Source of the DNA: Paracoccaceae bacterium
Lineage (GTDB): Bacteria; Pseudomonadota; Alphaproteobacteria; Rhodobacterales; Rhodobacteraceae
Assembly: GCA_024636555.1 (NCBI GenBank)
Contig: JAGXGW010000061.1
Span: 62,001-126,000, forward strand
Direction: 5' to 3'
Length of the DNA: 64,000 nucleotides
Positions 30,294-48,357 of the stretch are shown here, piece by piece. Below the pieces are notes generated by a model that saw only the letters and a program-made list of their open reading frames with translations, ran no database searches and had not been told where the DNA came from. The position numbers and the translations under genes were made by a program. Each line of letters opens with the position of its first letter. Position 1 is the stretch's first letter.

Positions 30294-32081
30294 ATGACTG
30301 CCTTTACCACGCGCCCCGAGATTCTGGGCCGCTTCGGGGTTGTGACCTCGACCCATTGGATCGCCTCTGCTGTGGGCATGAAGATGCTTGAACAGGGCGG
30401 CAATGCCTTTGACGCGGCGGTGGCGACGGGGCTGGTGTTGCAGGTGGTTGAGCCGCATTTGAACGGGCCGGGTGGCGATATGCCCGCGATCATCTACTCC
30501 GCAGCCAAAGGCAAGGTCGAGGTGATCTGCGCCCAAGGCCCGACACCCGCAGGCGCGACCATCGCGCATTACAAGGCCGAGGGGATGAGCGTCATCCCCG
30601 GTGACGGCTTGTTGGCCACGGTCATTCCCGGCGCATGGGACGGCTGGATGCTGATGCTGCGCGACTACGGGCGATTGTCCCTGCGCGATGTGCTGGAACC
30701 GGCGATCTTCTATGCGGCGCAAGGTCATCCCGTGTTGCCGCGTGTTGCCGCAACAATTGCGGGTCTCGGCGATTTTTTCCGCAAGGAATGGCCGACATCC
30801 TACGAGACTTGGCTTCCCGGCGGTGCTGCTCCCGCGCCTTGGGGCAACGTGACCAACCCCGCGCTGGCCGAGACATGGACCCGCATTCTGACCGAGGCCG
30901 AAGCCAAACAAGGCCGCGAGGCGCAGATAGATGCCGCGCGGGATGCGTTCTATCGCGGGTTCGTGGCAGAGCAGATCGCCAGCTATCTGGACACCGCCGA
31001 GGTGATGGACGCCTCCGGCTCCAAACACAAGGCTGTGCTGAGCGCTGATGATCTGGCCGGATATTCCGCCCATGTTGAGGAGCCGCTGACCTATGACTAC
31101 CACGGCTGGACGGTCGCCAAATGCGGACCGTGGACGCAAGGGCCGGTGTTCTTGCAAGGGCTGGCCCTGCTCAAGGGGGTCGAACTGGGGGCGATGGACC
31201 CGATGGGCGCGGATTTCATCCACCATACTGTCGAGGCGATGAAGCTCGCCTATGCCGACCGCGAGGTCTATTACGGTGATCCCGATTTCGCCAAGGTGCC
31301 GCTCGATGTGCTGCTGTCTGACAGTTACAACGCAGAGCGCGCCAAGCTGATCGGGAACCGCGCCAGCATGGAGCTGCGCCCCGGAACAGTGCCGGGATAT
31401 GAGGATCAGGTCGACCGCACGATGGCGCTGCTCGACGCGCTGAGCCGCACGGACGAGGCTGTCTACGAGCCGACAATGGCGCATCTGTCTGAAAAGAAGG
31501 GGGATACCGTCCATATCGACGTGATCGACAGCGAGGGCAATATGGTCTCGGTCACGCCATCGGGCGGCTTGCTGCAATCCTCTCCCACCATTCCGGGGCT
31601 GGGCTTCAACCTCAACAGCCGCGCGCAGATGTTCTGGCTGGAGCCGGACTTGCCCACTTCGCTGGAGCCGGGCAAACGCCCGCGCACCACGCTGACGCCG
31701 TCGCTTGCGCTAAAAGACGGTGTGCCGCAAATGTCCTTCGGGACACCGGGGGGCGATCAGCAGGATCAGTGGCAGTTGGTGTTTTTCCTGCGCTACGTGC
31801 ATCACCAGATGAACCTGCAAGAGGCGATTGACGCGCCGCTGTTCCATTCCTCGCATTTCCCGTCCAGCTTTTTCCCGCGCTCGCGCGAGCCGGGAATGGT
31901 GATGGCGGAGAAAAGCTTTGGCGCGGGCGTGCTGGACGATCTGCGGGCGCGCGGCCATCTGGTGACCGAGGCTGAGCCGTGGACCGTGGGCCGGATGACC
32001 GCCGCACGGCGCGATCCTGACGGGTTGCTGCGCGCGGCGGCAACGCCGCGTTTGATGCAAGCCTATGCGGTAGGGCGTTGA
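30294..32081 (+). CDS. Gamma-glutamyltransferase family protein (Ntn hydrolase)
   Basis: This 595-residue protein follows the gamma-glutamyltransferase pattern: GGNAFDAAVATGLVLQVVEP near residue 40, GPGGDMPA, PGAWDGWM, and the autoprocessing site with Thr405 (GDTVHIDVIDSEGNMVS). SLALKDGVPQMSFGTPGGD follows. Thr405 would become the N-terminal nucleophile after self-cleavage. The protein lacks a signal peptide, so it would act in the cytoplasm on imported gamma-glutamyl compounds or act as a related acylase. It follows the permease gene by 18 bp. Confidence 0.85.
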   Translation: MTAFTTRPEILGRFGVVTSTHWIASAVGMKMLEQGGNAFDAAVATGLVLQVVEPHLNGPGGDMPAIIYSAAKGKVEVICAQGPTPAGATIAHYKAEGMSVIPGDGLLATVIPGAWDGWMLMLRDYGRLSLRDVLEPAIFYAAQGHPVLPRVAATIAGLGDFFRKEWPTSYETWLPGGAAPAPWGNVTNPALAETWTRILTEAEAKQGREAQIDAARDAFYRGFVAEQIASYLDTAEVMDASGSKHKAVLSADDLAGYSAHVEEPLTYDYHGWTVAKCGPWTQGPVFLQGLALLKGVELGAMDPMGADFIHHTVEAMKLAYADREVYYGDPDFAKVPLDVLLSDSYNAERAKLIGNRASMELRPGTVPGYEDQVDRTMALLDALSRTDEAVYEPTMAHLSEKKGDTVHIDVIDSEGNMVSVTPSGGLLQSSPTIPGLGFNLNSRAQMFWLEPDLPTSLEPGKRPRTTLTPSLALKDGVPQMSFGTPGGDQQDQWQLVFFLRYVHHQMNLQEAIDAPLFHSSHFPSSFFPRSREPGMVMAEKSFGAGVLDDLRARGHLVTEAEPWTVGRMTAARRDPDGLLRAAATPRLMQAYAVGR

Positions 32082-32082
32082 G

Positions 32083-32835
32083 ATGACCTATTCCATCGTC
32101 GCGCGTGATCCTGCGACCGGACATCTGGGTATTGCCGTGGCCAGCCGTTTCTTTGCGGTGGGCTGTGCGGTGCCGTTCCTCAAGGGCAGGGTCGGGGCAG
32201 TGGCCACGCAGGCTTTTGTCAATCCGACCTATGGCCCTGACGGGTTGCGCCTGATGGAAGCGGGTGCGCCGCCGGATGCGATCATCCCGATCCTGACGGC
32301 GCGCGATGACGGGCATCCGAACCGCCAGATGCATATGATCGACGCGCAGGGCCGTAATGCCGCCTTTACGGGCGCGAATTGTGTCGACTGGTGCGGGCAT
32401 CTGGTGGCCGATGGTGTGTCTGTCGCGGGCAATATGCTGGAAGGACCGGAAGTGATCGCGCAAACGCTCAAGAGCTATCAGGCGGCGATGGACAAACCCT
32501 TGGCCGAGCGATTGCTGATCGCGATGCAGGCGGGCGAGGATGCGGGGGGCGACAAACGCGGCAAGCAATCGGCCTGTCTGGTGATTGTCCGCGATCAGGA
32601 TTATCCGTGGCTGGATATCCGCGCCGATGATCATGCCGATCCGCTGGACGAATTGCGCCGCCTCTATGCCGTGGCGCAGGAGCGGTTTTTACATGTGGCC
32701 GAAACCATGCCGACGCGCGAAAACCCGCATGGCATGGTGAACAGGCGGGCAATCGACGAGACCATCGCAAGGCTTGAGGCCGAGCGGATCGCGGCGGGAC
32801 GGCCCACCTCCTCGTTCATGGCCAACAAAGAATGA
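32083..32835 (+). CDS. DUF1028 family protein (Ntn-hydrolase-like)
   Basis: This 250-residue protein starts MTYSIVARDPATGHLGIAVA and has the family segments VATQAFVNPTYGPDGL, NRQMHMIDAQGR, and GEDAGGDKRGKQSACLVI. DUF1028 proteins have an Ntn-hydrolase-like fold and no settled activity, but often sit with gamma-glutamyltransferase-like genes. The ATG lies one base after the preceding stop, so the two proteins are likely made in equal amounts and may act in sequence. Confidence 0.85.
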   Translation: MTYSIVARDPATGHLGIAVASRFFAVGCAVPFLKGRVGAVATQAFVNPTYGPDGLRLMEAGAPPDAIIPILTARDDGHPNRQMHMIDAQGRNAAFTGANCVDWCGHLVADGVSVAGNMLEGPEVIAQTLKSYQAAMDKPLAERLLIAMQAGEDAGGDKRGKQSACLVIVRDQDYPWLDIRADDHADPLDELRRLYAVAQERFLHVAETMPTRENPHGMVNRRAIDETIARLEAERIAAGRPTSSFMANKE

Positions 32836-32860
32836 CAACGCAGCACCGAAGGAAAACGCC

Positions 32861-33799
32861 ATGATCGTGGATGCCGGACCAAAGACCTGCCATTGGGGCT
32901 TTTTCGATGCAGGCCTGCCTGCGGTGGCGACGGTTGCAAGCGGTGACGAAGTCACGATCAATACCGTCTCAGGCGGACCGAACGTGCTGCCGAAAGCCGG
33001 ATTCCACATCCCGCCGGAACTGCTGGACATCCACGCGAACGGAGTTCCCGCCATGCCGGGTCACATTCTCACGGGTCCGGTCGCCGTGGAAGGGGCGATG
33101 CCCGGCGATGTACTGCAGATCGACATTCTTGACGTGAAGCTGCGGCAGGATTGGGGATATACGTTCATCCGGCCCCTGTCCGGCACCTTGCCGCTGGATT
33201 TTCCTGAGGCCGCGCAAATGACCATCGCGCTTGATGCGGACAAGGCCGAGGCGACACTGCCGTGGGGGCTGAAAATGCCCTTGTCGCCGTTCTTCGGTGT
33301 GATGGCGGTGGCCCCGCCGCGCGGTTGGGGCCGTATCTCGACAATCGAGCCGCGCGCCCATGGCGGCAATCTCGACAACAAGGAACTCGTCGCGGGCACC
33401 ACGCTCTATTTGCCGGTGCTGGCAGAAGGGGCGCTCTTTTCCTGTGGTGACGGGCATGGCGCACAGGGTGACGGTGAAGTCTGCGTCACAGCCATCGAGA
33501 CAGCACTGCAAGGGCGCTTTCGCCTGACCATCCGGCGCGATCTGGATATCACCTATCCGGAGGCTGAAACGCCTACACATTTCATCACGATGGGGATGCA
33601 TCCCGATCTTGATACCTGCGTCGAGATCGCTTTGCGGCGGATGATCGCGCTTGTCGCGGCCCGTGCCGGAATTTCCCGCGCCGAGGCCTATATGCTGTGC
33701 TCTCTGGCAGGCGATCTGCGGATCACGCAGACGGTCAACCGCGAAAAGGGTGTGCATATGATGATGCGGAAAACGTTGATCACGCGCACAGTTGTCTGA
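32861..33799 (+). CDS. Acetamidase/formamidase family protein
   Basis: This 312-residue protein has the FmdA/AmdA family layout: PGHILTGPVAVEGAMPGDVLQIDI, PRAHGGNLDNKELVAGTTLYLPV, FSCGDGHGAQGDGEV with the metal-binding Asp/His, and a C-terminal AYMLCSLAGDLRITQTVN. The family hydrolyses formamide and short amides to ammonia. ATG 32861 follows AAGGAAAA. As the last gene of the operon it would release ammonia from an amide product. A second, more distant family member lies at 47368-48357. Confidence 0.87.
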   Translation: MIVDAGPKTCHWGFFDAGLPAVATVASGDEVTINTVSGGPNVLPKAGFHIPPELLDIHANGVPAMPGHILTGPVAVEGAMPGDVLQIDILDVKLRQDWGYTFIRPLSGTLPLDFPEAAQMTIALDADKAEATLPWGLKMPLSPFFGVMAVAPPRGWGRISTIEPRAHGGNLDNKELVAGTTLYLPVLAEGALFSCGDGHGAQGDGEVCVTAIETALQGRFRLTIRRDLDITYPEAETPTHFITMGMHPDLDTCVEIALRRMIALVAARAGISRAEAYMLCSLAGDLRITQTVNREKGVHMMMRKTLITRTVV

Positions 33800-34003
33800 C
33801 AGGGCGGGAGGCGCAAGTCTCCCCGTCTCCGGTTTGCAATCGGTGAAAAAAATTCCCCCAAACTAAAGCCTGCCTCAATTTTGCTTAAATTGCTTGAAAC
33901 AAGGTTGAAGCGGACTGCGTAGGCAGATTGCCCGAGGTGTTGCATTGCTCCGAGGATTTGCTGCGACGTGGCAGAAATTATGCAGAGGCGGGAGAGGAAA
34001 AAC

Positions 34004-34111
34004 ATGAGCGCGGTTGCTATAATATTTACCGTCTATCTGCTCGTCTCGCTTTTTGTGATGATCGCCTTCTGTCGCGCCGCAGCGCATGGCGACCGGGTGC
34101 TTGATCGCTGA
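34004..34111 (+). CDS. 35-residue single-pass membrane peptide
   Basis: ATG 34004 to TGA 34109-34111 encodes a short peptide with one helix (VAIIFTVYLLVSLFVMIAFC) and a polar tail AAAHGDRVLDR. A strong ribosome-binding site GGAGAGG lies at 33991-33997. A degenerate stress-promoter-like pair (GAAAC 33896-33900, CGTA 33918-33921, 17 bp apart) lies upstream. No family is recognised. The rest of the 33800-34143 gap holds only a weak hairpin (GGGAG at 33806 with CTCCC at 33819) after the amidase gene. Confidence 0.6.
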   Translation: MSAVAIIFTVYLLVSLFVMIAFCRAAAHGDRVLDR

Positions 34112-34143
34112 TATCCGGCCAACCGGGCACTGGAACCGCCGCG

Positions 34144-35040
34144 TCAGCCGGTTGCTTCCAGCACCAAGGCTTCGCATGCCGGCCGGGAAATGAGGCGTCT
34201 TTTCAAATCATGTTCCACCCCGCTCAAGTGCGTCGCTTGTGGCACTTCGTCTGTCCAGACCCGGAAACCCTTGAGCGCATATGACCCGAATGATGTGATC
34301 ATCGCGCAATCGGCGGCGTCTCGTCCCCGGACCATCACAACGCGGCCGATGCGCGGCGTGTTGTAGCGCGCGTCGAACGTATACCAGCGGTCGCCAAGAT
34401 AAGCCTCGAACCACGCGCAAAAATCGCCGGGGCCTGCGTAAGCCACACCGATGTCCCCCAGATAGCCGCTCACATAGCGGGCCGGAATGTTCATCGCGCG
34501 GCAGTATGCAATGGCGAGATGGGCAAAATCACGGCATACGCCGGTCTTCTCGCGGTGCGCGTCGCTGGCGGTCTTGGTCGGGCGACCATAGCCATAGCCA
34601 AAGGTGATCTCGTTATGAACGTGGTCGCAGATGGCCTGCACCCGCGCCCAACCCGGTTCCGTGGCGCCGAACAGGCGGAAGGCGTCGGGTGCCAGAATAT
34701 CGGAATCGCAATACCTGCTTGCGGTCAGGAATTGCAGCGTCTGCGCAGGCAGGTCTCCTACGTCATGCTGCCGGGCGGTGCGGTCGATCCTGTCCGGCTT
34801 GCCGTCAACCTCGACGATGCAATCGGACCATAGTGTGAGGCGTCCCGCCGGTGCGCGAAGGCGCGTCAGGTGATTGCCGAAGCTATCGACAAAGCATTCC
34901 TGTGGCAGGTCAGGCTCGGTCCGTGCATCGTCAGTCCCGATCATGCGACCGTCGAAACCGGAATGCGTCGAAAGGGCAAGGATCAGCACGGTATCAGCGT
35001 AGCTGTCGATCTTGATCTCGTAACCGATGCGAATGAACAT
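34144..35040 (-). CDS. Transglutaminase-like protein with altered triad position
   Basis: This 298-residue protein has an N-terminal beta domain and a transglutaminase core: TGVCRDFAHLAIAYCRAMNI with the expected nucleophile Cys169, then DFCAWFEAYLGDRWYTFDAR with Asp223. Where the catalytic His usually sits (DFHAWFEAY) there is Cys208, so the classical Cys-His-Asp triad looks broken. It may be a binding protein or use a variant mechanism. ATG 35040 is chosen because AAGGA precedes it and because an exact EcfG promoter at 35108-35132 lies inside the longer frame. Confidence 0.82.
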   Translation of the reverse strand: MFIRIGYEIKIDSYADTVLILALSTHSGFDGRMIGTDDARTEPDLPQECFVDSFGNHLTRLRAPAGRLTLWSDCIVEVDGKPDRIDRTARQHDVGDLPAQTLQFLTASRYCDSDILAPDAFRLFGATEPGWARVQAICDHVHNEITFGYGYGRPTKTASDAHREKTGVCRDFAHLAIAYCRAMNIPARYVSGYLGDIGVAYAGPGDFCAWFEAYLGDRWYTFDARYNTPRIGRVVMVRGRDAADCAMITSFGSYALKGFRVWTDEVPQATHLSGVEHDLKRRLISRPACEALVLEATG

Positions 35041-35107
35041 TGCCGCTATTTCCTTATTGCCAAGACGTCGAACGCTGCGATGCGGCGAGATTTCCGGTGC
35101 ATCTGTA

Positions 35108-35132
35108 AACGCCACAGCGCGGCTTTTGTTCC
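35108..35132 (-). promoter_or_regulatory. Sigma-EcfG-type promoter upstream of the transglutaminase gene
   Basis: On the minus strand GGAAC (35132-35128) and CGTT (35111-35108) are 16 bp apart, an exact consensus match, 68 bp before the ATG at 35040. Confidence 0.65.
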
Positions 35133-35309
35133 GCCCTGCCCAAGACGGCCGCGGGATTACGCCGTATGTGCTGGCTCTCGTGGCCGCCGTCCCGCGTAGG
35201 TCTTGATTTGTCGTTTGACAAACTGCGCCGCTTGAACAGGATGAAGCTTCCTGAGGCCTGTGGGCGATCCGCAGTTTGGCCAGCAGGAATAGTGCGCAAT
35301 GGGGGAAAT

Positions 35310-35966
35310 ATGATCCTTGTGACCGGGTTCGAGGGCTATGGCGGGCGCAGCGCCAACCCTTCCGAAAGCGTAGCGCGGGCGCTGGATGGCGCCAAAATCG
35401 GAGAGGCGCGAGTGAGCGGCCACGTGCTGCCGGTCGATTTTCGCGCCATCTGCCGGATGATGCCCGATCTCGTGGATACCCTGAGGCCGCGCCTGATCGT
35501 GTCACTCGGCCTGTGGCCGGGAGAGCCGATGGTGCGGATCGAACGACTTGCTGCGAACTGGTCTGTCTTTGAGCTCCCCGACAATACCGGCCATCGCCAG
35601 CGAGGCCGCGTGATCGACAATGGCCCTGACGGCTATCTGTCCACGTTGCCTGCGGATGCGATGCAGGCGGCGATCCGCGCGGCGGGACTGCCCTGCCGCC
35701 AATCGGGCAGCGCGGGGACATATCTTTGCAATGCAACATCCTATGTGACGTTGCACCATTGCGCGCAGAGCCATCCGGACACGTTGGCCGGCTTCATCCA
35801 CTTGCCCTATCTGCCGTCACAAGTGGCCGCGATGATGGATCAGGTTGCCGCCGCAGGCGAGGTCGAAATCCACCAGCGCGCGGATACTGCCTCGATGAAC
35901 CAGCAAGACATGATCGACGCCTTGCGGATCGGTCTTGAAACGGCATGGGCCGCATCTCAGGCGTAA
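35310..35966 (+). CDS. pcp: Pyroglutamyl-peptidase I (C15 family)
   Basis: This 218-residue cysteine peptidase removes N-terminal pyroglutamate. It has MILVTGFEGYGGRSANPSES at the N terminus and the catalytic triad Glu79 (VRIERLAAN), Cys140 (TYLCNATSY) and His164 (GFIHLPYLP). The start at 35310 matches the usual family N terminus; the frame extends to 35166 without similarity. It lies divergent to the transglutaminase and between amide-importing operons, which fits use of pyroglutamyl peptides as nutrients. Confidence 0.87.
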   Translation: MILVTGFEGYGGRSANPSESVARALDGAKIGEARVSGHVLPVDFRAICRMMPDLVDTLRPRLIVSLGLWPGEPMVRIERLAANWSVFELPDNTGHRQRGRVIDNGPDGYLSTLPADAMQAAIRAAGLPCRQSGSAGTYLCNATSYVTLHHCAQSHPDTLAGFIHLPYLPSQVAAMMDQVAAAGEVEIHQRADTASMNQQDMIDALRIGLETAWAASQA

Positions 35967-36247: not shown

Positions 36248-37885
36248 ATGGCGTGGTTTGTCAGTCTGATCGTTCTGCTTGTCGTCGCCGTATTGGTGAT
36301 CCTTTTCCTCAACCGTTATTACCGCAAAGCCACGCGCGAGGTGAGCCTTGTGCGGACAGGTGCAGGCGGTCAGCGGGTTGTGTTGGACGGGGGCTGCATC
36401 GCCCTGCCGTTCCTGCACAAGGTGTCTGAAGTGAACATGCGGACCTCCAAGCTCGAGATCGAGCGGTTGGGGCCGAAGTCGATCATCACCAAGGATCGTC
36501 TGCGTGTGGACATCGGTGCCGAGTTCTACGTTCGGGTGCGGGCCACGGCCGAAGGTGTGGCGACAGCGGCGCAGGCTTTGGCGGGCAAATCCTTCCGCTC
36601 TGCCGATCTGGCCGAAACCCTTGAGGGCAAGCTGGTCGATGCGATGCTCTCTGTGGCCGCGCGCTATACGATGGATGAATTGCAGGACAACCGCGCGGGA
36701 TATGCGCGCGAAATATCCGACGTGTTGTCGGATAATCTGGCACAGAACGGCTTGCTGCTGGAATCGGTATCGCTGACGCGGATCGACCAGACCCCGTTTC
36801 ATGCGCTTGACGAGAACAACGCCTTCAACGCGCTCGGTATGCGGCGTCTGGCCGAGATCATCGCGGTCAACAAAAAAGAACGCGCGGTTATCGAGGCGGA
36901 TGCCGAGGTTGCGGTGCGTCAAAGCCAGTTGGACGCGACCAAACGCAGGCTGACGATCAGCCGCGAAGAAGAAGAAGCCATGATCACCCAGCAGCGCGAG
37001 ATCGAGATTGCGCGCTCGCGCTCCATGGCGGAGACAGCCGAGGAGCAGGCCTCCTCCGAGAAGCGGCGCGAGGCGGCCCGGATCGCGCGGGAACGCGAGG
37101 TGCGCCTCACCGAGATCAGCAAGGATCGCGAATTGCGCGAGCAAACGCTGGCGGCGGAACTGTCCACGGCTCTGGCCAAGACCGACAATGCCGTCCGGCT
37201 GGCCGCCAAGCGGGTGGAGGAAGCCCATGCCGAGGCCGAAGCGATCGCCGCCACCGCCTCCGGTGCCGAGGCCGAGGAAAAGGTTCGTACGATCCGCGAG
37301 CAGGCCGTAGCCGACCGCGAGAAAGTGCTGGCCCTGATCCGCGCCACCGAGCAGGCCGAGGTGGATGACACGCGTGTGCGCTCAGAGGTGGGAACCTTGC
37401 TGGCGATGGCCGAGGCCGAGGCGAAAGCGATGCTGGAGCGTGCCGAGGCGCAGAAGTTCAAGCTTCTGGCGGAGGCGGAGGGACGCAACGCCGTGATCAC
37501 TGCCGAAAACGCGCAAAGCCCAGAGCTGATGGCGATGAAACTGGACGAGGCGCGCATCCGCACCCTGCCCGAAGTGGTGGAGCGCATGCTCAAGCCTGCC
37601 GAAAAGATCGAGAGCATCCGCATCAACCACATCACCGGCATGGGGCGCGCCAGTGGCCCGACCGGCGAGGGCGGCTCCGGCCCGGAGGGCGGCACGGTGA
37701 ACCAACTGGTGGATGGCGTGCTGTCAATGGCGCTGCAACTGCCTGCGGTGCAACGTCTTGGCGAGGAAGTCGGCATGAATATCGGTGACGGTGTGCGAGG
37801 CGTGGCCGCGCAACTGGACCGTCGCAGCAGCGGGGGTACCCGCAAACCAAAAACGGACGGCGAAACGTCCGAATCCAAGGACTGA
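36248..37885 (+). CDS. Flotillin / YqiK-type SPFH-domain membrane protein
   Basis: This 545-residue protein has one N-terminal helix (VSLIVLLVVAVLVILFLNRYY), then an SPFH domain (VRTGAGGQRVVLDGGCIALPF to about residue 200). A long Glu/Ala-rich coiled coil with repeated EAEA segments runs to about residue 430, and the tail is Gly-rich. This is the bacterial flotillin-2/YqiK build that organises membrane microdomains. The usual partner, an NfeD/YqiJ-type protein, is not adjacent. AATGGGGAACAAAG precedes the ATG. Confidence 0.87.
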   Translation: MAWFVSLIVLLVVAVLVILFLNRYYRKATREVSLVRTGAGGQRVVLDGGCIALPFLHKVSEVNMRTSKLEIERLGPKSIITKDRLRVDIGAEFYVRVRATAEGVATAAQALAGKSFRSADLAETLEGKLVDAMLSVAARYTMDELQDNRAGYAREISDVLSDNLAQNGLLLESVSLTRIDQTPFHALDENNAFNALGMRRLAEIIAVNKKERAVIEADAEVAVRQSQLDATKRRLTISREEEEAMITQQREIEIARSRSMAETAEEQASSEKRREAARIAREREVRLTEISKDRELREQTLAAELSTALAKTDNAVRLAAKRVEEAHAEAEAIAATASGAEAEEKVRTIREQAVADREKVLALIRATEQAEVDDTRVRSEVGTLLAMAEAEAKAMLERAEAQKFKLLAEAEGRNAVITAENAQSPELMAMKLDEARIRTLPEVVERMLKPAEKIESIRINHITGMGRASGPTGEGGSGPEGGTVNQLVDGVLSMALQLPAVQRLGEEVGMNIGDGVRGVAAQLDRRSSGGTRKPKTDGETSESKD

Positions 37886-37942: not shown

Positions 37943-39190
37943 ATGACTTTTTCGCGTAGAAGTTTTCTTGCCGGATCGTCCGCGCTCGCGTTGTCCTCAG
38001 CCCCGATCATCGGGCGGGCGCAGGGCAGCGACAAGATCATCTTCGCCTCCATCCTCGATCTGTCGGGGGGGCTTGATATCTACGGCACCGCGATGGCCGA
38101 TGCGACCAGCCTTGCCATTGACGATATCAACGAAGCCGGTGGCCTGCTGGGCCGCGAGGTTGAGTTGAAGATGTACGATGCGCAATCGACCATCCAGTTC
38201 TATACCCAATACGCCACGCAGGCCGCCGCAGGCGACCGGGCTGCCACCGTGCATGGCGGCATCACCTCGGCCAGCCGCGAGGCGATCCGCCCCACATTGG
38301 CGCGCTTCAAGACGCTGTATTTCTACAACACGCAATACGAGGGCGGCGTGTGTGATTTCAACAACTTCTGCACCGGCTCCACGCCCGCGCAGACGGTGGC
38401 CAAGGTTGTTCCCTATGCGATGAACAAATGGGGCAAGAAGGCCTATATCATCGCTGCCGATTACAACTATGGCCAGATCATCGCGCAATGGGTGGACCGC
38501 TTCGTCAAGGAGAATGGCGGCGAGACGCTCGAGATCGAGTTCTTCCCGCTGGATGTCACCAACTTCGGCCCGACCATCAACAAGATCCAGCAGGCCAAGC
38601 CCGATCTGGTGTTCTCGGGTCTTGTGGGCGGCGCGCATGTATCTTTCTACCGCCAATATGCAGCGGCAGGCATGAATGCGGAAATTCCGATTGCCTCCAC
38701 CACCTTCGGGATCGGCAACGAGCACAAGCTGATCTCGGCCGAGGAAGGCAACGGATTGCTGGCGGCCTATTCCTATTTCGAAGGGGTGCAAAACCCGGAA
38801 AACGAGGCCTTCCTTGCGCGGATGGATGCCAAATTCGGGGATGATCGCGCCACGATGAACGAGTTGACCGTGCGATCCTACGAGGGCGCGATGCTCTGGG
38901 CCGAAGCGGTCAAGCTGGCAGGTAGCATCGAGCATGACGAGGTGACAGCGGCGCTGAAATCGGGGCTGACCTATAATGGCCCCTCCGGCCCGATCACGAT
39001 TGATCCGCAGACCAACCACGCCATCCAGAACGTTGTTCTGGGCGAGTTGCAGGATCAGGAGTTCAACATCGTGGCGAGCTACGAGGCGGAGCCGCCGGCG
39101 GATACGCAGCTTGTCTGCGATCTGAACGCCAATCCGACCCTGTCCACCTTCTACTTCGAGAATGGTCTGGCCGCAGCCGGGATCGAGTGA
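37943..39190 (+). CDS. Amide/urea-type ABC transporter substrate-binding protein
   Basis: This 415-residue protein begins with a twin-arginine signal (SRRSFLAGSSALALSSAP), so it is probably exported folded. The mature domain is a Peripla_BP_5 type close to UrtA, FmdD and AmiC: DLSGGLDIYGTAMADATSLA, DINEAGGLLGREVEL, and LYFYNTQYEGGVCDFNNFC, where UrtA has a WYPVQYEG-like segment. A urea, short amide or related ligand is likely. AGGAGAG precedes the ATG. It is the first gene of a seven-gene operon containing an amidase. Confidence 0.85.
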   Translation: MTFSRRSFLAGSSALALSSAPIIGRAQGSDKIIFASILDLSGGLDIYGTAMADATSLAIDDINEAGGLLGREVELKMYDAQSTIQFYTQYATQAAAGDRAATVHGGITSASREAIRPTLARFKTLYFYNTQYEGGVCDFNNFCTGSTPAQTVAKVVPYAMNKWGKKAYIIAADYNYGQIIAQWVDRFVKENGGETLEIEFFPLDVTNFGPTINKIQQAKPDLVFSGLVGGAHVSFYRQYAAAGMNAEIPIASTTFGIGNEHKLISAEEGNGLLAAYSYFEGVQNPENEAFLARMDAKFGDDRATMNELTVRSYEGAMLWAEAVKLAGSIEHDEVTAALKSGLTYNGPSGPITIDPQTNHAIQNVVLGELQDQEFNIVASYEAEPPADTQLVCDLNANPTLSTFYFENGLAAAGIE

Positions 39191-39267: not shown

Positions 39268-40137
39268 TTGGATCTTGTGGCTGCGATTGGCCTGCAACTG
39301 GCCTATGTCATCGCGAACCTTGCCCTGATCAGCCTTGGGCTGGCGATCATTTTCGGCATGATGCGGGTGATCAACCTTGCGCATGGCGAGTTTCTGATGC
39401 TGGGCGGCTATACGGTGGTGGTGGCGACCAATGCAGGTGTGAACATCTGGGTGGCGATGCTGCTCCTTGCACCGCTGGTGGTGGGCATCATCGGCGTGAT
39501 CGTGGAGCGCTTGCTGATCCGCTGGCTTTACGGGCGCATGGTCGATACGCTGCTGGCCACATGGGGGTTGTCGCTGTTGCTGGTGGGGCTTGTCACGTCG
39601 ATCTTCGGCGCCTCGACAGCCACCACTGTCTCGCCGCCGCTGGGGGTCCTGCGGTTCGGAAACTACTCCGCATCCGGCTACGAGCTTTTCCTGATCCTGA
39701 TCACCATCGTCCTGTTCTTTGCCGTCTGGCTGACACTACGCTTTACCAAATTGGGCTTGCTGGCGCGGGGCACGATGCAGAATGCCGAGATGGCCTCATC
39801 CCTCGGCGTCTCCACCAGCCGCATCTACATGATCACTTTCGGCCTTGGTGCGGCGGTGTCCGGTCTGGCGGGCGGGTTGCTGGCCCCGATGACAGGGGTG
39901 CTGCCGACCATCGGGGCCACCTATATCGCCAAGGCATTCATCACCGTGATTTCGGGCGGATCGGCAATCCTGGCCGGCACAACAGCCGGATCAATCCTGC
40001 TGGGCGGGTTGAACGGTATTTTCTCCTTCATCGCGGGATCGACCTTTGGTGAGATCGCTCTGCTGATCGCCGCGATCCTGCTGCTGCGTCTGATGCCGCG
40101 CGGGATCACGGGCCGCTTTTTCCGGAAGTCGCTATGA
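39268..40137 (+). CDS. Branched-chain/urea-type ABC transporter permease (LivH/UrtB-like)
   Basis: This 289-residue permease has about eight helices with the LivH-type start LALISLGLAIIFGMMRVINLAHGEFLMLGGY, followed by RWLYGRMVDTLLATWGLSLLL, LARGTMQNAEMASSLGVST, and the late FITVISGGSAILAGT. The Trp/Tyr-rich RWLYGR segment fits the urea/amide subgroup. The start codon is TTG at 39268 behind ACGGAGAG. It overlaps the next permease gene by ATGA. Confidence 0.87.
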   Translation: MDLVAAIGLQLAYVIANLALISLGLAIIFGMMRVINLAHGEFLMLGGYTVVVATNAGVNIWVAMLLLAPLVVGIIGVIVERLLIRWLYGRMVDTLLATWGLSLLLVGLVTSIFGASTATTVSPPLGVLRFGNYSASGYELFLILITIVLFFAVWLTLRFTKLGLLARGTMQNAEMASSLGVSTSRIYMITFGLGAAVSGLAGGLLAPMTGVLPTIGATYIAKAFITVISGGSAILAGTTAGSILLGGLNGIFSFIAGSTFGEIALLIAAILLLRLMPRGITGRFFRKSL

Positions 40138-41177
40138 GTAACGGTATCCTGCGCCAGATGCGCCCGACCTTCTTTTATGCCCTGCTGGGGCTGGTCTTCA
40201 TGTTCGCCGCCCCGCAGGTGCTGCAACTGTTCACCATCATTAACCTGACCACGGCCATCGCGCTGGCGGTGCTGGCGCTCAGCCTTGCGCTGATCTGGGG
40301 CTATGGCGGTATCCTGTGTTTCGGGCAGGTCGCGTTTTTCGGCCTCGGGGCCTATGTCTACACGATCTCGGCAATCAACTTTGGTGGCTCGACATGGGCC
40401 ATTCTGGTGGCGGTCATTGTCACCTCGGCGTTTGCGGCGGCTTTGGGGTATTTCATTTTCTACGGCCGTGTGTCGGACGTGTATCTGGGCGTGATCACCC
40501 TGACGGTGACGCTGATCTTTTTCTCGCTGATCCGGCGCACATCGGGACCGGAATACAAGATCGGCAATGCGCTGCTGGGTGGGTTCAACGGGGTATCATC
40601 GCCGCCGATCAACCTGCCATGGAACCCGACCGCGTTCCTGTTCCCTGAACATGTCTTCTACGTTGCCATGGCCGCGTTGATCCTGTGCTATCTGTTTGCG
40701 GGCTGGCTGGTGAACACCAAATTCGGCCGCGTCTGCGTAGCGATCCGCGAGAACGAGCTGCGCGCCGAATTGCTGGGCTATGACTCGCGGCTCTACAAGC
40801 TGGGCATCTTCACCATCGGCGCGGGTATTGCGGCGATCGGGGGCGTTTTGTTCTGCAACGGGGTAGGACGGATCACGCCGGATGTATTCAGCCTCTATAA
40901 TGCTGCCCTGACGATCATCTGGGTGATCGTGGGCGGGCGCGGCACGCTCATCGGCCCTATCGGGGCCACCTTCGCGCTGTTCTATCTGACCTCGGCGCTG
41001 GGCGGGCAGAGCCTGTTCAACAACAATCTGGTGCTTGGCGCGATCCTGATCATCTTTGTGCTGCTTGTGCCCAAAGGCGTGGCCCCAACCGTGGTCGATT
41101 GGGTGAGCGCGCGCCGCAAACCAGCCGCCGGGCGCGTACGCCGTCGCCGCAACGCCAGAGTGGAGGGTGCGGAATGA
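40134..41177 (+). CDS. Branched-chain/urea-type ABC transporter permease (LivM/UrtC-like)
   Basis: This 347-residue permease has about nine helices with WGYGGILCFGQVAFFGLGAYVY, RVSDVYLGVITLTVTLIFFSL, AIRENELRAELLGYDSRLYKL, and ALTIIWVIVGGRGTLIGP, all LivM/UrtC landmarks. It ends in a basic, Arg-rich tail after VPKGVAPTVVDW. Its stop overlaps the next ATG by 4 nt. Confidence 0.87.
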   Translation: MSNGILRQMRPTFFYALLGLVFMFAAPQVLQLFTIINLTTAIALAVLALSLALIWGYGGILCFGQVAFFGLGAYVYTISAINFGGSTWAILVAVIVTSAFAAALGYFIFYGRVSDVYLGVITLTVTLIFFSLIRRTSGPEYKIGNALLGGFNGVSSPPINLPWNPTAFLFPEHVFYVAMAALILCYLFAGWLVNTKFGRVCVAIRENELRAELLGYDSRLYKLGIFTIGAGIAAIGGVLFCNGVGRITPDVFSLYNAALTIIWVIVGGRGTLIGPIGATFALFYLTSALGGQSLFNNNLVLGAILIIFVLLVPKGVAPTVVDWVSARRKPAAGRVRRRRNARVEGAE

Positions 41178-41902
41178 GCCGTCAGCGCGGAGACGTCGTG
41201 GTCGAGACGCGTGGCCTTTGCATGCATTTCGGTGGCGTGCGGGCGGTGGATCAGGTGGATTTCACCCTGTTCGACCGCGAATTGCGCTGTCTCATCGGCC
41301 CCAACGGCGCGGGCAAATCGACCTTTTTCAAATGTCTGACAGGGCAGTTGACCCCCACAGCGGGCGAGGTGGTGATCCGGGGCCAGACCATGACGGGGGC
41401 GGAGCCGTTCGAGGTGGCCAGCCTTGGCGTGGGGATCAAGACGCAGGTGCCGAACGTGTTCGACGGGTTGAGCGCGGAGGAGAATATCTGGGTCTCGGCC
41501 CGTCGCTGGCATGATGACCGCCGCGCAAGGACGGTGACATCGGATACGATAGAGCGGCTGCGCCTCGGCGATATCCGCAGGACGCAGCTTGGCCGTCTGG
41601 CGCATGGGCAGCGCCAGTGGGTCGAACTGGGGATGGTTGTCGCGGCAGAGCCTTGGCTGGTGCTGCTGGATGAACCCGCTGCCGGCATGACGCATGAGGA
41701 AACATACCGCACCGCCGAGTTGATCGAAGAGATCAACACAACCGCGGCCCTCATCGTGGTGGAACATGACATGCAGTTCATCCGCATGATCTCGCGTCAG
41801 GTCACGCTGTTTCATGAAGGTGGCATCCTGATGGAGGATACGATGGACGCCATTTCTGCGGACAAACGCGCCCGCGAAATCTATCTTGGGCACCGGGCAT
41901 GA
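41174..41902 (+). CDS. Branched-chain/urea-type ABC transporter ATP-binding protein (LivG/UrtD-like)
   Basis: This 242-residue ATPase has Walker A GPNGAGKSTFFKCLTG, a LivG-type GVGIKTQVPNVFDGLSAEEN stretch, a degenerate signature LAHGQRQWVELGM (the UrtD-like form of LSGGQ), Walker B WLVLLDEPAAGM, and VEHDMQFI with the switch His. The degenerate signature is shared with UrtD proteins, which again points to urea/amide substrates. It overlaps its neighbours by 4 nt on both sides. Confidence 0.87.
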   Translation: MSRQRGDVVVETRGLCMHFGGVRAVDQVDFTLFDRELRCLIGPNGAGKSTFFKCLTGQLTPTAGEVVIRGQTMTGAEPFEVASLGVGIKTQVPNVFDGLSAEENIWVSARRWHDDRRARTVTSDTIERLRLGDIRRTQLGRLAHGQRQWVELGMVVAAEPWLVLLDEPAAGMTHEETYRTAELIEEINTTAALIVVEHDMQFIRMISRQVTLFHEGGILMEDTMDAISADKRAREIYLGHRA

Positions 41903-44301
41903 GCGCGCTGCTGAAAGTATCCGGTCTGCGCGCCGGTTATGGCCGGGTGCCCGTGCTGCATGGCATCGACCTGGCCGTGAACGAGGGCGAGATCCTGGGT
42001 GTGCTTGGCCACAACGGTATGGGCAAGTCCACGTTGCTGAAAACGCTGATGGGGATCATCCCCGCGTCGGGCGGCAGCATGGTGTTCGACGGTCAGGATC
42101 TGGTGCGGATGCGGTCATCGGCGCGCGCGCAGATGGGGATCGGCTATGTGCCGCAGGGGCGGGGGATTTTCCCCAACCTCAGCGTGCGCGACAACCTGCG
42201 CATGGGTGTGGCCGCGCATGACATGGACGAGGAGAGCGCGATTGAACGCGTGCTGGCCGATTTCCCGAGGTTGGAACGGCTGCTCGAACGCGATGGCGGT
42301 GCGCTGTCGGGCGGTGAGCAGCAATTGCTGGCGCTGGCCCGCTGTCTGGTGTCGGAGCCGGACCTGATCCTGCTGGACGAGCCAACCGAAGGCATCCAGC
42401 CGTCCATCATCGACGAGATTATCGACTTGCTGAAGGAGCTGAACCGCCGCGACGGTCTCAGCATCATTCTGGTGGAGCAGAGCCTGGATTTCATCACCGC
42501 ACTGTCGGACCGCGTGCTGTTGATCCAGAAAGGCCGCATCATGGGCGAGGTTTCGGGGTCCGAGGCGGCAGACCCGGCGCTGATCGAGGAATTCACCGGA
42601 TTCGGGGCAAGTGGCGGGGCTGGCGGCAAGCCTGCACCATCGGCGGTCACAGCACTCAAGTCCGACAAACCGCCCGCAGCGCCACCTGCTCGGGCAGGCG
42701 GGGCTGCTGCCCTGACGTCTGCAAAACCATCGGCGAAACCCGCCCCTCATGCCACTGCGGCACCGTTGCAAGAAAGGATGTCCTACATGACTGTCCAGCG
42801 CCCTACCCATGCACAGATGAAAACCATCGTGGAAGAGTTGGGCATGCATATGTCGGACGCGCGCGTGCAGGAGTTTCTGGACGTGATGCAGGGCACGCTT
42901 GATGCCTATGACATCGTGGATGCGCTGCCCGATTACCTGCCCCCGGTTCTCTATCCGCGTACTTCTGGCCATCGCCCCACGGCGGAGGAAAACCCGATGA
43001 ACGCGTGGTATGTGAAGACCGAGATCAAAGGCGCGCCGCGCGGGCCGCTTCTGGGACGGACCATCGCGCTGAAGGATAACGTCTGCCTTGCGGGGGTGCC
43101 GATGATGAACGGGGCAGCCACCCTTAAAGGCTATACGCCCGATATCGACGCCACCGTTGTCACGCGGCTTCTGGACGCGGGTGCCACGATCATGGGAAAG
43201 GCGCATTGCGAATATTTCTGCCTGTCCGGTGGCAGTCACACCAACGCCACGGGCGCTGTGCATAATCCGCACAAACACGGCTATTCGGCGGGCGGCTCCT
43301 CCTCCGGTTCCGGTGCGCTGGTGGGGGCGGGACTGGTCGATATGGCGATCGGTGGCGATCAGGGCGGCTCGATCCGTATGCCCGCATCCTTCTGCGGCGT
43401 TTACGGGATGAAGGCGACCCATGGTCTCGTGCCGTATTCCGGAATCATGCCGATTGAGAATACCATCGATCACGCCGGACCGATGACCCAGACCGTGATG
43501 GATAACGCCCTGATGCTGGAAGTCATCGCCGGGGCCGACGGTCTGGACCCGCGCCAATATGATGTGGTCACCGACCGTTATACGGCGGCGGTCAACCGCG
43601 GTGTGTCCGGCCTCAGGATCGGGATAGTCAAGGAAGGCTTCGGCCATCCGCAATCCGAGGCGGATGTCGACGCATCTGTGCGGGCCGGGGCCGAGACGTT
43701 CCGCCGTCTGGGCGCGACCGTGGACGAGATTTCGATACCGTGGCACCTGCACGGCCCCGCGATCTGGACGCCCATCGGTCTGGAAGGTCTGACCAATCAG
43801 ATGATGCTGGGCAACGGCTTCGGCACTGGCTGGGAAGGGCTCTATACCACTTCGCTGCTGGATTATCATTCGAACTGGCGCAGCCGCGCGGATGAGTTGT
43901 CCGATACGCTCAAGATTTCCATGCTGGTCGGCCAATATCACCTGAAACATACGCGCGGGCGCTACTATGCCAAGGCACAGAACCTGTCGCGGCAGTTGCG
44001 CGAGGAATATAACAAGGTTCTCGCCTCATACGATCTTCTGCTGATGCCCACGACACCGATGAAGGCCACGCCGCTGCCGCCCGCCGACAGCACGCTCGCC
44101 CTCTGGACCCAGCGCGCGTTCGAGATGCTGCCCAATACCTCGCCCTTCGATGTGACGGGGCATCCGGCGATGTCGATCCCTTGCGGCATGTCGGATGGTT
44201 TGCCCATCGGCTTGCAACTGGTGGGGCGGCGCTACGAGGAAAGCACGATCTACCGCGCCGCGGGCGCGTTCGAGCAGGCGGGCGACTGGCGCAAGATGTA
44301 G
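41899..44301 (+). CDS. LivF/UrtE-like ABC ATPase fused in frame to a signature amidase
   Basis: This 800-residue frame joins two complete enzymes. Residues 1-236 are a LivF/UrtE ATPase (Walker [10 protein letters not shown] 37-45, signature LSGGEQQ 136-142, Walker B LILLDEP 156-162, VEQ at 192-194). Residues 237-293 are an Ala/Pro/Lys-rich linker. From about 294 on is a full amidase with triad Lys392 (ALKDNV), Ser467 (GGSSSGS) and Ser491 (GGDQGGSIR). [11 protein letters not shown] and [11 protein letters not shown] resemble amidases of nitrile-utilising Rhodococcus. An AAAGGA at 42773-42778, 8 nt before ATG 42787 (residue 297), could also give a separate amidase. No stop or frameshift separates the parts. 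Confidence 0.85.
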
Positions 44302-44318: not shown

Positions 44319-46031
44319 ATGTCGGCAAGGGTCACATCAAGGCCGGGCATCCGCCCTGCCAACGGGCTGTCACATGTGGCAGGCTCGACCGAGCGCCCGC
44401 TGATCGCGGCGACGATCCCGGCCTTTATGGCCGAGGTGGTCCGCCGCCACGGTGACCGCACGGCGGCAGTATTCCGGCAGACAGGCGACCGTTGGAGCTA
44501 CACTGAATTCGCCCGCCTGATCGACCGATTGGCGGCGGGCTTGTTGTCCATCGGGGTCTACAAGGGCGACCGTGTGGGTATCTGGTCACCGAACCGCCCC
44601 GAATGGCTGCTGGCGCAATTCGCCACCGCACGGATCGGCGCGATTCTGGTGACCATCAACCCGGCTTACCGCACGTCGGAGCTAGACTATGCGCTGAACA
44701 AGGCGGGTGTCTCCTGCCTGATCGTGGCGCCGCAGTTCAAATCTTCCGATTACATGGCGATGCTGGCGGAACTCGCACCCGAGATGGCGACCTGCCCGCC
44801 GGGACGGCTGCGGGCCGCTCGCCTGCCCGCCTTGCGCGCTGTTGTGCAACTGGGGCCGAAGCCGCGCCCCGGTGCCTTCGCGTTCGAGGCATTGATGGAG
44901 CGCGGCAACCGCGCCGTGCGCACCCGTCTGGATGCGATCAGCGCCAGCCTGCACCCCGATGACGCGATCAACATCCAGTTCACCAGCGGCACCACAGGCG
45001 CGCCCAAAGGGGCCACGCTGAGCCACCGCAATATCATCAATAACGCCATCTCCACCGCCCGCGCCATGCGCCTGCAACCGGGCGAGGGGCTGTGCATTCC
45101 GGTGCCCTTCTACCATTGCTTTGGTATGGTTCTGGGCAACCTGGCGGCCTGTTCCTATGGTGCCACGATGGTCATCCCCGGCGAGGCGTTCGATGCGCGC
45201 GAGACGCTGGCCGCGATTGACGCCGAGGGCTGCGCGGCGGCGCACGGTGTGCCGACGATGTTCCAAACCATGCTGGATCATCCCGAATTTGACAGTTTCG
45301 ATATGCGCAGCCTGCGGACGGGTATCATGGCGGGCGCGCCCTGTCCCGAACCGCTGATGCGCCGGGTGATGGAGCGGATGCATTGCCGCCAGATCACCAT
45401 CGGGTACGGGATGACGGAAACGAGCCCGATTTCGTTCCAATCGGCCGTGGATGATCCGGTGGACAGGCGGGTCTCGACCGTGGGTCGCATCCAGCCGCAT
45501 GTGGAATGCAAGGTTGTCGATGCCGAGGGGCGCACTCTGCCGGTGGGGCAGCAGGGCGAATTGCTGACACGCGGTTATCTGGTGATGAAAGGCTACTGGA
45601 ACGATCCAGAGCGCACCGCTGAAGCGATACAAGGCGGTTGGATGCAGACCGGCGATCTGGCGACGATCGACGCGGAGGGATATTGCAGGATCACGGGCCG
45701 TTCCAAGGATATGCTGATCCGTGGCGGAGAGAATGTGTATCCGGCGGAGATCGAGGCGTTTCTGGCCACCCATCCCGATATATCGCAAGCGCAGGTCTTT
45801 GGCCTGCCCGATCCCAAATTCGGTGAGGAGATTGCCGTCTGGGTGATCCTGCGCCCCGGTGCTGCGATGTCGGAGGAGGCGTTGCGCGAGTGGTGCCGTG
45901 GCAAGATCGCGCATTACAAGGTGCCGCGCTATGTCCGGTTCGTGGCCGAGATGCCGATGACGGTGACGGGCAAGCCGCAGAAATTCGTGATGCGTGACCA
46001 GATGATTGCCGACTTGGGGCTGAGTGCCTGA
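44319..46031 (+). CDS. AMP-dependent acyl-CoA synthetase/ligase
   Basis: This 570-residue adenylating enzyme has the ATP motif [16 protein letters not shown], then [13 protein letters not shown], the A5 motif [12 protein letters not shown], the hinge [36 protein letters not shown] in separate conserved blocks, and the catalytic Lys near the end in TVTGKPQKF. It resembles medium/long-chain fatty-acyl-CoA ligases. Following the amidase by 17 nt, it would activate the carboxylic acid released from the imported amide. ATG 44319 follows GGGGGA. Confidence 0.87.
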
Positions 46032-46592: not shown

Positions 46593-47354
46593 TTACAACT
46601 GCACGCCTTTGGTCAGCGCACCGTCGATCACCAGATTGGTGCCGCTGGTAAAGCTGGAGGCGGGCGAGGACAAAAACACCACGCCCCGCGCGATCTCTTC
46701 GGGTTTGGCCATGCGGCCCATCGGGTTCATCGCCAAGGCCTCTGAAAACAGATCGGGGTTGTTGGTCTCGATCGACTGCCAGATTCCGCCCGCAAAATAT
46801 GTGTTGCCCGGTGACACGGTATTGGCGCGGATGCCCTTGGGGGCGAGCTTCATCGCCAGACCTTGGGCGTAATGCACGAGGGCGGCCTTGAACGCGCCGT
46901 AAGCGGGACCGGTAAAATCGACCTCGCGCCCCGAGACGGACGAGATCAGCGTGATCGCCGCCGCGTCGGATTTTTCCAGCCATGGCATCGCGGCATTCAC
47001 CAACCGGACCGAATGCATCATATCGGTGTCAAAGCCCGATTGCCACGCCGCCTCGTCATCGGAGACGGCCAAGGCCGAAACATTGGCCACCACGATGTCG
47101 ATCCCGCCGAGGGTTGCGGCGCTGTCATGCACCCATGATTTCAGCGCATGCGCGTTGGAGACATCCACCGCGCGGCCAAAGACGTTTGCCCCCTTGGCGT
47201 TCAGCGCCTCGACCGTGGCAGTCACCCCGTTGGCATCGCGGGCGCAGACTGCAACCGCCGCACCCTCGCTTGCGAAAATCTCGGCACAATGCAGGCCGAT
47301 CCCCTTGGTACCGCCCGTGACCAGCACGCGCAGGCCTTTCAATCCCAGATCCAT
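46593..47354 (-). CDS. Short-chain dehydrogenase/reductase
   Basis: This 253-residue classical SDR has the cofactor motif TGGTKGIG, DVSNAHAL, VVANVSALA (NNAG equivalent), Ser in LISSVSG, and the catalytic YGAFK. It ends DGALTKGVQ like many FabG-type enzymes. The NNAG motif is replaced by NVSA, which is seen in some SDR groups. It lies 13 bp downstream of the amidase gene at 47368 on the same strand, so the two are probably cotranscribed. It converges on the large amidase operon. Confidence 0.86.
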   Translation of the reverse strand: MDLGLKGLRVLVTGGTKGIGLHCAEIFASEGAAVAVCARDANGVTATVEALNAKGANVFGRAVDVSNAHALKSWVHDSAATLGGIDIVVANVSALAVSDDEAAWQSGFDTDMMHSVRLVNAAMPWLEKSDAAAITLISSVSGREVDFTGPAYGAFKAALVHYAQGLAMKLAPKGIRANTVSPGNTYFAGGIWQSIETNNPDLFSEALAMNPMGRMAKPEEIARGVVFLSSPASSFTSGTNLVIDGALTKGVQL

Positions 47355-47367
47355 GTCTTGTGTCCCT

Positions 47368-48357
47368 TCAAACCAGATATTTTTTCAACATGGATGCACC
47401 CAGCGAATATTTCGGGTCCACCATATTGCCCACGCGCATCTTTCCGGCCTGTGTCGCCAGAAAATACGCCTCCGATTCCTCGAACCCGTAATCTTCGACC
47501 ATCCAGCGGATCAGGTCGCGGTAGGCCATCCGGGCGGCATCCTCCATCGGGCGGGCAGAGCCGACGGACATGATGAACTCCTCGGTCTCCAGCCGGACGC
47601 CGGGGATCGACCAGCCTTTGATCAGGTCGATCTGCACGGTCACCGTGGCAGGAATCTCGACAGCGACGCCGCAGAGTTCCCCGTCACCCTGCCGTCCGTG
47701 ACAATCGCCGATATAGAAATACGCCCCCTCGCGCTGGACGGGGAAATAGATCACGGCGCCGGGGGCCACATCCGGCAGGTCCATATTGCCGCCGTAATAG
47801 TCTGGCACCAGCGAGGAGATTGCCTCGATCTCGGGGGACACGCCCATCGTGCCGACAAAAGGCTCGTAGGGCAGGGTGATCCTGTCGGAGAATTTTACAC
47901 CGTCCGGTGTCACCTCCATCTTCTTCACGCGCTCGGCGATAGGTGCATTCAGATGCGTGAGGCTGCTGGCGACCAGACCGCCGAAATCAGGGATCAGTGC
48001 CGTGGTGCCAGCAGGCTGTGGACCACGCGGCAGCAGGCTTTTGATATGCACCGCCAGAACGTCACCCTTTTGGGCGCCTTCCACCGAAATGGGGCCGTTC
48101 TGCGGGTTCACGAACGGCATGTTCAGCACTTTGGAGGGCAGATCATCCTCGGTTTTGACCGCGCCGCCGAAGGCATCCAGCGTCTCGACCGCGACCACAT
48201 CGCCGGGGGCGATATGCATCACAGGTTCGGCATAGGGGCCGTAGACGTAATGGAACTCTCCTTGCGCCTTTTCGGTCAGATGATGTTGCGCCCCTTCACG
48301 TGCCTGCGCCACGCCAAGCCGCCCCATGACCGAGGAATTGAGCCACGCCATTTCCAT
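47368..48357 (-). CDS. Acetamidase/formamidase family protein
   Basis: This 329-residue protein has FmdA-family features: MHIAPGDVVAVETLDAFGG near residue 50, NPQNGPISVEGAQKGDVLAV, YGGNMDLPDVAPGAVIYFPV, GDCHGRQGDGELCGVAVE, and EAYFLATQAGKMRVGN near the C terminus. It should hydrolyse formamide or a short amide. GGGAAGGG precedes two close ATGs (48357 and 48351), and either may be used. It lies opposite the amide importer operon and may complete the same pathway. Confidence 0.87.
   Translation of the reverse strand: MEMAWLNSSVMGRLGVAQAREGAQHHLTEKAQGEFHYVYGPYAEPVMHIAPGDVVAVETLDAFGGAVKTEDDLPSKVLNMPFVNPQNGPISVEGAQKGDVLAVHIKSLLPRGPQPAGTTALIPDFGGLVASSLTHLNAPIAERVKKMEVTPDGVKFSDRITLPYEPFVGTMGVSPEIEAISSLVPDYYGGNMDLPDVAPGAVIYFPVQREGAYFYIGDCHGRQGDGELCGVAVEIPATVTVQIDLIKGWSIPGVRLETEEFIMSVGSARPMEDAARMAYRDLIRWMVEDYGFEESEAYFLATQAGKMRVGNMVDPKYSLGASMLKKYLV

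Follow-up and report, generated by a model that had tools for sequence, protein, structure and literature searches.

Does a single gene of an alphaproteobacterium encode both an ATPase of an ATP-binding cassette (ABC) importer and the enzyme that would break down the imported compound and, if so, is the fused chain its only product? The question is raised by a gene at positions 41899-44301 (forward strand) of a 64,000-nucleotide stretch of a Paracoccaceae bacterium contig, hereafter the window, in which a first-pass annotation had recognized an importer ATPase joined in frame to a catabolic amidase. The fusion is real, but that description is incomplete: the architecture appears to be old and conserved, and we consider it likely that this last importer gene of a putative amide-uptake and catabolism operon yields two proteins, an 85-kDa ATPase-amidase and, through an internal start, a free 54-kDa amidase. 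The parts all come from known families; their combination is new.

The gene is a single stop-free frame running from ATG 41899 to TAG 44301 (800 amino acids) and comprises the following features:

41899-42597, forward strand: fusion residues 1-233, UrtE/LivF-type ATPase (ABC_tran at residues 20-163; confident fold; 36% identity to 1ji0).
42598-42786, forward strand: fusion residues 234-296, disordered Ala/Pro-rich linker.
42771-42778, forward strand: internal Shine-Dalgarno sequence AGAAAGGA, 8 nucleotides (nt) before ATG 42787, an 8-nt perfect complement of the 16S rRNA tail CCTCCTTTCT.
42787-44301, forward strand: amidase domain, residues 297-800, and the probable free amidase from ATG 42787 (PRK07235, 3a1k, conserved start codon).

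Open reading frame, Pfam and NCBIfam assignments agree on the fusion. Pfam places ABC_tran at residues 20-163 (115 bits) and Amidase at residues 369-784 (329 bits), the sole further match, AAA_21, overlapping the ATPase part, which is nearest to UrtE (TIGR03410, 265 bits, under the cut-off of 285.8). The N-terminal domain possesses the Walker A, Q-loop, LSGGQ-type signature and Walker B motifs of an ABC ATPase, and across 65 aligned fusions the Walker A Gly/Lys/Thr, Q-loop Gln86, LSGGEQQ (136-142) and Walker B/DEP (159-162) are invariant. The first-pass claim that all ATPase motifs are present is nevertheless slightly too strong because the H-loop position is occupied by Gln194, not His, in 65 of the 65 fusions; Gln is usual at this position in LivF/UrtE. 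The amidase had been described as complete, and this holds: residues 297-799 match PRK07235 with 811 bits, above the cut-off of 545, and the Lys392-Ser467-Ser491 triad is unchanged across the 65 fusions, which places the domain in the PRK07235 subfamily and predicts that it hydrolyses amides. In a structure predicted from a 65-row alignment (mean predicted local distance difference test score, pLDDT, 80; predicted template modelling score 0.61), the two domains are mostly confident, and residues 234-297, together with several amidase loops, have pLDDT below 50, in agreement with the previously proposed linker. The closest solved amidase by sequence is that of Rhodococcus sp. N-771 (PDB 3a1k, E 1e-147), which is also the top fold match (49% identity) among the best 50 listed; 1ji0, which corresponds to the ATPase part, is also among these 50.

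The evidence for a second product starts with the position of the domain boundary. The amidase domain opens at M297 (ATG 42787) with MTVQRP, exactly where separate amidase genes start, and all 94 non-redundant fused loci have a start codon at this site (88 ATG and one GTG in the aligned column, and five ATG one codon earlier). The 16S tail CCTCCTTTCT used for scoring was taken from two congeners and one other family member, the 16S end of the source genome itself not having been found, and this alphaproteobacterial tail was applied to all loci, including the few beta- and gammaproteobacterial ones. A match to it of at least 5 nt precedes the internal start in 67 of the 94 fused loci, compared to 3.4% of linker codon positions. 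Averaged over the 94 loci, the duplex energy at the site comes to -7.71, and over 35 diverged representatives to -6.94; the other in-frame ATGs average -2.87 and -2.92, respectively, and 31 non-fused amidase genes -9.5. Across clades the Shine-Dalgarno site is spelled by differing amino acids (ER, QEA, KEA, RF, VT), with 33 different upstream tetrapeptides among the 35 representatives. Furthermore, the local RNA is less structured at the site than the gene average (-5.17 vs -10.08, p 4e-10).

Because ranking by energy alone is not decisive, we relied on a control in which synonymous codons are resampled with the amino acids kept, applied also to other conserved Met columns. In the 35 representatives the site exceeds this null (-6.94 vs -4.12 kcal/mol, p 1.1e-8), and none of 15 other conserved Met columns falls below p 0.54. 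The excess persists with an E. coli-like tail (p 1.7e-7) and with the CCUCC core alone (p 4.4e-6), as well as in the 12 representatives sharing under 75% identity (p 0.0005 to 0.01). Synonymous conservation among near relatives is also elevated over residues 292-297 (0.81 vs 0.57 overall, 23 rows; 0.82 vs 0.56 after dropping four rows that largely repeat named genomes), although we treat this as supporting evidence only because windows elsewhere reach 0.91 and 0.89. The site thus combines a conserved internal start codon with a ribosome-binding site that, by sequence comparison, is under selection. Given that the site exceeds the synonymous null and the other Met columns do not, the gene probably makes both the 85-kDa fusion and the free 54-kDa amidase. 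It had been suggested that finding only separate products, among them one of about 54 kDa, would disprove the fusion; since the gene probably makes free amidase internally as well, a 54-kDa product by itself would not refute it.

Several observations weigh against the two-product reading. Eight of the 94 fused loci lack even a 4-nt match to the 16S tail, and in one large clade within the family to which the window belongs the sites are mostly of the GGTGA type. By raw energy the site ranks only 5th of 798 columns in 92 loci and 14th of 796 in the 35 representatives, where M635 exceeds it; such columns score well because some conserved peptides spell purine runs by chance. Low RNA structure is not unique to the site, column M716 being equally low (-5.06). 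When 25 loci were first scored one by one against a shorter, E. coli-like tail, most gave no significant result (2 of 25 below 0.05), and with the CCUCC core and the 12 representatives one other column comes to p 0.017, against 0.01 at the site. The control itself covered 16 of the 19 columns with start codons in at least 80% of rows, with 721, 773 and 800 left out. Because the residues after Met297 are conserved, this Met may be partly structural. Finally, the fusion is rare overall: a stop-free full-length version occurs in 25 of the 295 genomes of the family, in 11 of 385 sampled from the class and in 1 of 398 sampled from the phylum (the source genome being included in each count and the only one in the last).

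One alternative is that only the full-length fusion is made, with the internal Shine-Dalgarno sequence and ATG being either a relic of a formerly separate gene or a pause site that aids domain folding. In favour of this, the site coincides exactly with the start of separate amidase genes, Met297 has conserved residues behind it, and other columns equal the site on raw energy. However, the upstream linker aligns poorly between clades, as judged by eye, and the site has nevertheless been kept, spelled by varying codons and amino acids and in excess of the synonymous null, whereas a pause site would need no start codon at all. We therefore regard production of the fusion alone as unlikely and retain the reading with two proteins from one gene.

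How widespread and how stable is the fusion itself? Among all amidase loci examined, 103 of 142 show the same two-domain order that the first-pass annotation had proposed to look for in protein databases; 15 have separate, adjacent genes, 16 have no matching ATPase just upstream (judged on the upstream stretch examined) and 8 lie at contig edges. In the scan of named genomes, the best 80 of at least 581 confirmed amidase matches were kept; 67 of these carry the fusion, 7 are truncated by a contig end, 4 are without an ATPase upstream and 2 were scored separate; as these loci are the nearest relatives, the 67 of 80 is not representative of the family at large. The named and unnamed sets overlap, with 9 amidases being exact repeats. 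Within the genus, the full-length frame is present in the source genome and four other genomes of the seven, in two contig pieces in a further one, and without a match in the last (72% complete). The four congeners are near-complete and share the frame at 91-94% identity; three or more of them are identical with the genomes that contain the named loci L067, L069 and L071, so that the congener and named-locus counts overlap. Among the carriers are Rhodobacterales isolates, members of Hyphomicrobiales, Kiloniellaceae and Burkholderiaceae, and assemblies from Gammaproteobacteria, for instance Arenicellales and Chromatiales; most beta- and gammaproteobacterial carriers are metagenome assemblies, two of which (L105, L108) are at chromosome level. 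Cultured examples are Marimonas arenosa (L073), Salinarimonas rosea (L144) and Lutimaribacter saemankumensis (L070). Plasmid pSMR1-3 of Pseudosulfitobacter carries a fused copy that is truncated where the record ends. Amidase dosage seems variable because in some genomes a second amidase gene, 52-55% identical to that of the window, adjoins the fused or separate amidase (G083:C28:82299-86173; G263:C28:172336-175394); one genome, G224, has two full-length fusions.

A tree built from 68 amidases contains a branch (support 96/98) that separates the 35 fused rows, grouped with 8 contig-edge rows and with L107, L110 and L117, from the remaining 22, all of which have separate genes or no matching ATPase in at least 1.5 kb upstream. 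The fusion label changes three times on the tree, or twice without L107 and L110 (edge rows not counted). In L107 the linker is open and the frame breaks inside the ATPase, and in L110 the break lies in the linker; we did not accept these as true splits, the choice between error and real break being undecided. L117, from Defluviicoccus, is nested in the fused clade and encodes a solo amidase starting at the same Met, which appears to be a natural loss of the tethered form; L123 and L145, also Defluviicoccus and near L117, look the same, and in all three no matching ATPase lies just upstream and a purine-rich run precedes the Met. Outside the fused clade, cousins have one gene for the amidase and others for the importer. 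The simplest reading is one old fusion lost at least once (L117), although the direction of change can only be inferred because the root was placed by midpoint; several independent fusions are not needed, as the 35 fused rows share one side of the branch. The fusion has been kept in Alpha-, Beta- and Gammaproteobacteria, and we take it to be a long-conserved architecture.

Such conservation is relevant to a second alternative, namely that the fusion is a co-expression device, the chain being cut in the exposed linker or the full-length form merely tolerated, with the parts working separately. The linker, disordered in the model, varies from 33 to 103 amino acids across the 94 fused loci (A 21%, P 16%), operon versions with separate genes exist, and the Defluviicoccus line has the amidase without an ATPase upstream, all of which would suit this scenario. 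On the other hand, one frame is retained across Alpha-, Beta- and Gammaproteobacteria, the tree shows few changes, and no conserved cleavage motif was found by eye in a 26-row linker alignment. The linkers of the 94 loci contain no stop in 5286 codons of the fusion frame, compared to 79 and 80 stops in about 5192 codons in each of the other two forward frames; fused loci were defined as stop-free, and the result is informative mainly in that no loci of the fused clade other than L107 and L110 broke this rule. The physical link between ATPase and amidase is probably useful, given that the arrangement is conserved, and we consider a mere co-expression device distinctly improbable next to a maintained tether.

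The genes around the fusion are consistent with uptake and breakdown of an amide:

36248-37885, forward strand: flotillin/SPFH protein, the first operon gene (Pfam Flot and Band_7).
37943-39190, forward strand: periplasmic binding protein, UrtA/AmiC-like (Peripla_BP_5/6; TIGR03669 325 bits, below the cut-off of 494.8).
39268-40137, forward strand: permease 1, UrtB/LivH-like (BPD_transp_2; the listed start, TTG, is unproven).
40134-41177, forward strand: permease 2, UrtC/LivM-like (BPD_transp_2).
41174-41902, forward strand: partner ATPase, UrtD/LivG-like (ABC_tran; TIGR03411 235 bits, below the cut-off of 304.1; start placed by reading the open reading frame).
44319-46031, forward strand: acyl-CoA (coenzyme A) ligase, the conserved next gene (AMP-binding; PRK12583 824 bits, just under the cut-off of 832; start placed by eye).
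46593-47354, reverse strand: SDR oxidoreductase, convergent (adh_short_C2; in a minority of relatives).
47368-48357, reverse strand: FmdA/AmdA-like acetamidase/formamidase (FmdA_AmdA; in a minority of relatives).

The UrtD-like gene ends within the start of the fusion, the overlap reading ATGA. The order flotillin, binding protein, two permeases, UrtD-like ATPase and fusion holds in every one (57 of 57) of the named fused loci in which 5.3 kb or more precedes the ATPase, and the acyl-CoA ligase lies directly downstream in 60 of the 62 with room (exceptions L093 and L139); the SDR and FmdA-like genes are present in 18 of 58. With genes for a binding protein, a pair of BPD_transp_2 permeases and a pair of ABC ATPases lying in the same operon, the transporter is an ABC importer of the HAAT type. 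The expectation of urea/amide-type importer neighbours was correct in that the rest of the importer is there, and did not hold for a curated urea importer: all five subunits miss the UrtA-E cut-offs (binding protein with TIGR03669, as listed above, and with TIGR03407, 241 < 492.75; UrtB 211 < 250.3; UrtC 178 < 296.2; UrtD and UrtE as given above), and urea specificity was rejected on these grounds. Among PDB relatives of the binding protein, 8tg1 is the nearest, with the urea-binding 7s6e and AmiC 1pea lower. The substrate is more likely an amide than urea.

Other features of this region deserve mention in their own right. The flotillin-family gene heads all 57 checkable loci, although an amide importer has no obvious need for a flotillin. 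In many fused operons outside the near relatives (L096, L113, L114, L119, L120, L126 and others), a gene for an AmiC-like binding protein, 41-58% identical to that of pSMR1-3 and perhaps an amide sensor, is located just upstream of flotillin; the pSMR1-3 protein used as a query against the window matched only the operon's own binding protein (24%). Upstream of the operon, 30294-35966 forms a second amide/gamma-glutamyl-looking cluster, downstream of Opp/Dpp-type transporter genes, which holds a gamma-glutamyltransferase-like gene, a pyroglutamyl-peptidase-like protein (35166-35966) and an FmdA-like protein (32861-33799), all three scoring below their cut-offs and the last one by far.

C-terminal extensions of importer ATPases are usually regulatory, as in NrtC, the nitrate importer ATPase with a large, binding-protein-like regulatory C-terminal domain. 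By analogy, the amidase domain might act mainly as a sensor that gates the ATPase in response to a cytoplasmic amide or its product. We find this very unlikely because the Lys-Ser-Ser triad is invariant in the 65 fusions and in 60 of 62 loci the next gene encodes a CoA ligase that could use the acid product, both of which indicate that catalysis matters. That a stop between two genes was lost through faulty sequencing or assembly, an artefact of the kind that the fragmented source genome (80 contigs, 79.6% complete) could suggest and that had been named as a danger for the linker, is already refuted by the same frame in the four near-complete congeners and in 67 of the best 80 named loci, isolates included.

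Under the preferred reading, translation from ATG 41899 would give the 85-kDa second ATPase of the importer with the amidase on a flexible linker of about 60 residues, and translation from ATG 42787, behind its own ribosome-binding site, would give the identical amidase as a free 54-kDa enzyme. The importer would carry an amide-like ligand across the membrane, the amidase tethered at the importer and the free one in the cytoplasm would split the amide into ammonia and a carboxylic acid, and the acyl-CoA ligase encoded by the next gene would activate this acid with CoA. The full-length product would place one amidase per importer and the internal start would add free amidase, so that amidase could exceed the number of transporters. 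Enzymes have often been proposed to sit beside the transporter that feeds them, and it is plausible that amide hydrolysis is tethered to the importer in this way; tethering may speed up or couple the step, although this, like the amide substrate and the production of both proteins, is something we infer, whereas the fusion, its conservation, the operon and the selection on the internal site are shown by the sequences compared. The free amidase may dock on, or pair with, the tethered copy. The quaternary structure of the Rhodococcus amidase, sought in PMC6801914 to judge such pairing, yielded nothing useful there. More tentatively, and with considerable doubt, one could imagine that tethered and free amidases co-assemble and form, with the ligase and flotillin, a membrane-bound station that imports, hydrolyses and CoA-activates the amide, the ratio of the two initiation sites governing the amount of amidase at the transporter.

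If the internal start is used, removal of one codon would separate the tethered from the free enzyme genetically, making the benefit of tethering directly testable, and the fused, split and amidase-only versions of related operons provide a natural test set. The second product would escape any annotation that allows a frame only one start. A search of the open-access literature, at the level of result listings and with subscription literature and protein-database annotation outside its scope, returned no description of an importer ATPase fused to an amidase, in line with the first-pass impression. To our knowledge, an ABC importer ATPase joined covalently, and in an evolutionarily fixed manner, to an enzyme of catabolism has not been recorded.

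Compared to known systems, the importer has the five-part layout of UrtABCDE and LivFGHMK, each subunit having both Pfam and NCBIfam relatives; it differs in that all subunits fall below the urea-transporter cut-offs and the second ATPase carries an amidase. The Rhodococcus sp. N-771 amidase (3a1k, 3a1i) and other PRK07235 enzymes share the fold, with 49% identity, and the alignment pairs the Lys and the two Ser at positions 96, 171 and 195 of either sequence, which we take to be the catalytic residues of the Rhodococcus enzyme; these amidases, however, are free, without an ATPase or importer tether. Plasmid pSM30-1 of Pleomorphomonas sp. SM30 and Caballeronia sp. M1242 have importer genes, among them one for a LivF-type ATPase, and an amidase of the same family in one neighbourhood, but with ATPase and amidase in two genes (amidase first in Caballeronia), with MarR and AmiC-like genes nearby and no flotillin or ligase within the stretch examined. 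NrtC resembles the fusion in joining an importer ATPase to a large C-terminal domain, although that domain is a regulatory ligand-binding one, not an enzyme. For the internal start, the closest parallels are SpaO/SpaO-short (PMC13059759) and Cas8b/Cas11b (PMC11899642), where the C-terminal part is reported to be made free as well, from an internal start. SpaO-short and Cas11b are structural subunits, whereas the short form predicted here from sequence would be a whole enzyme.

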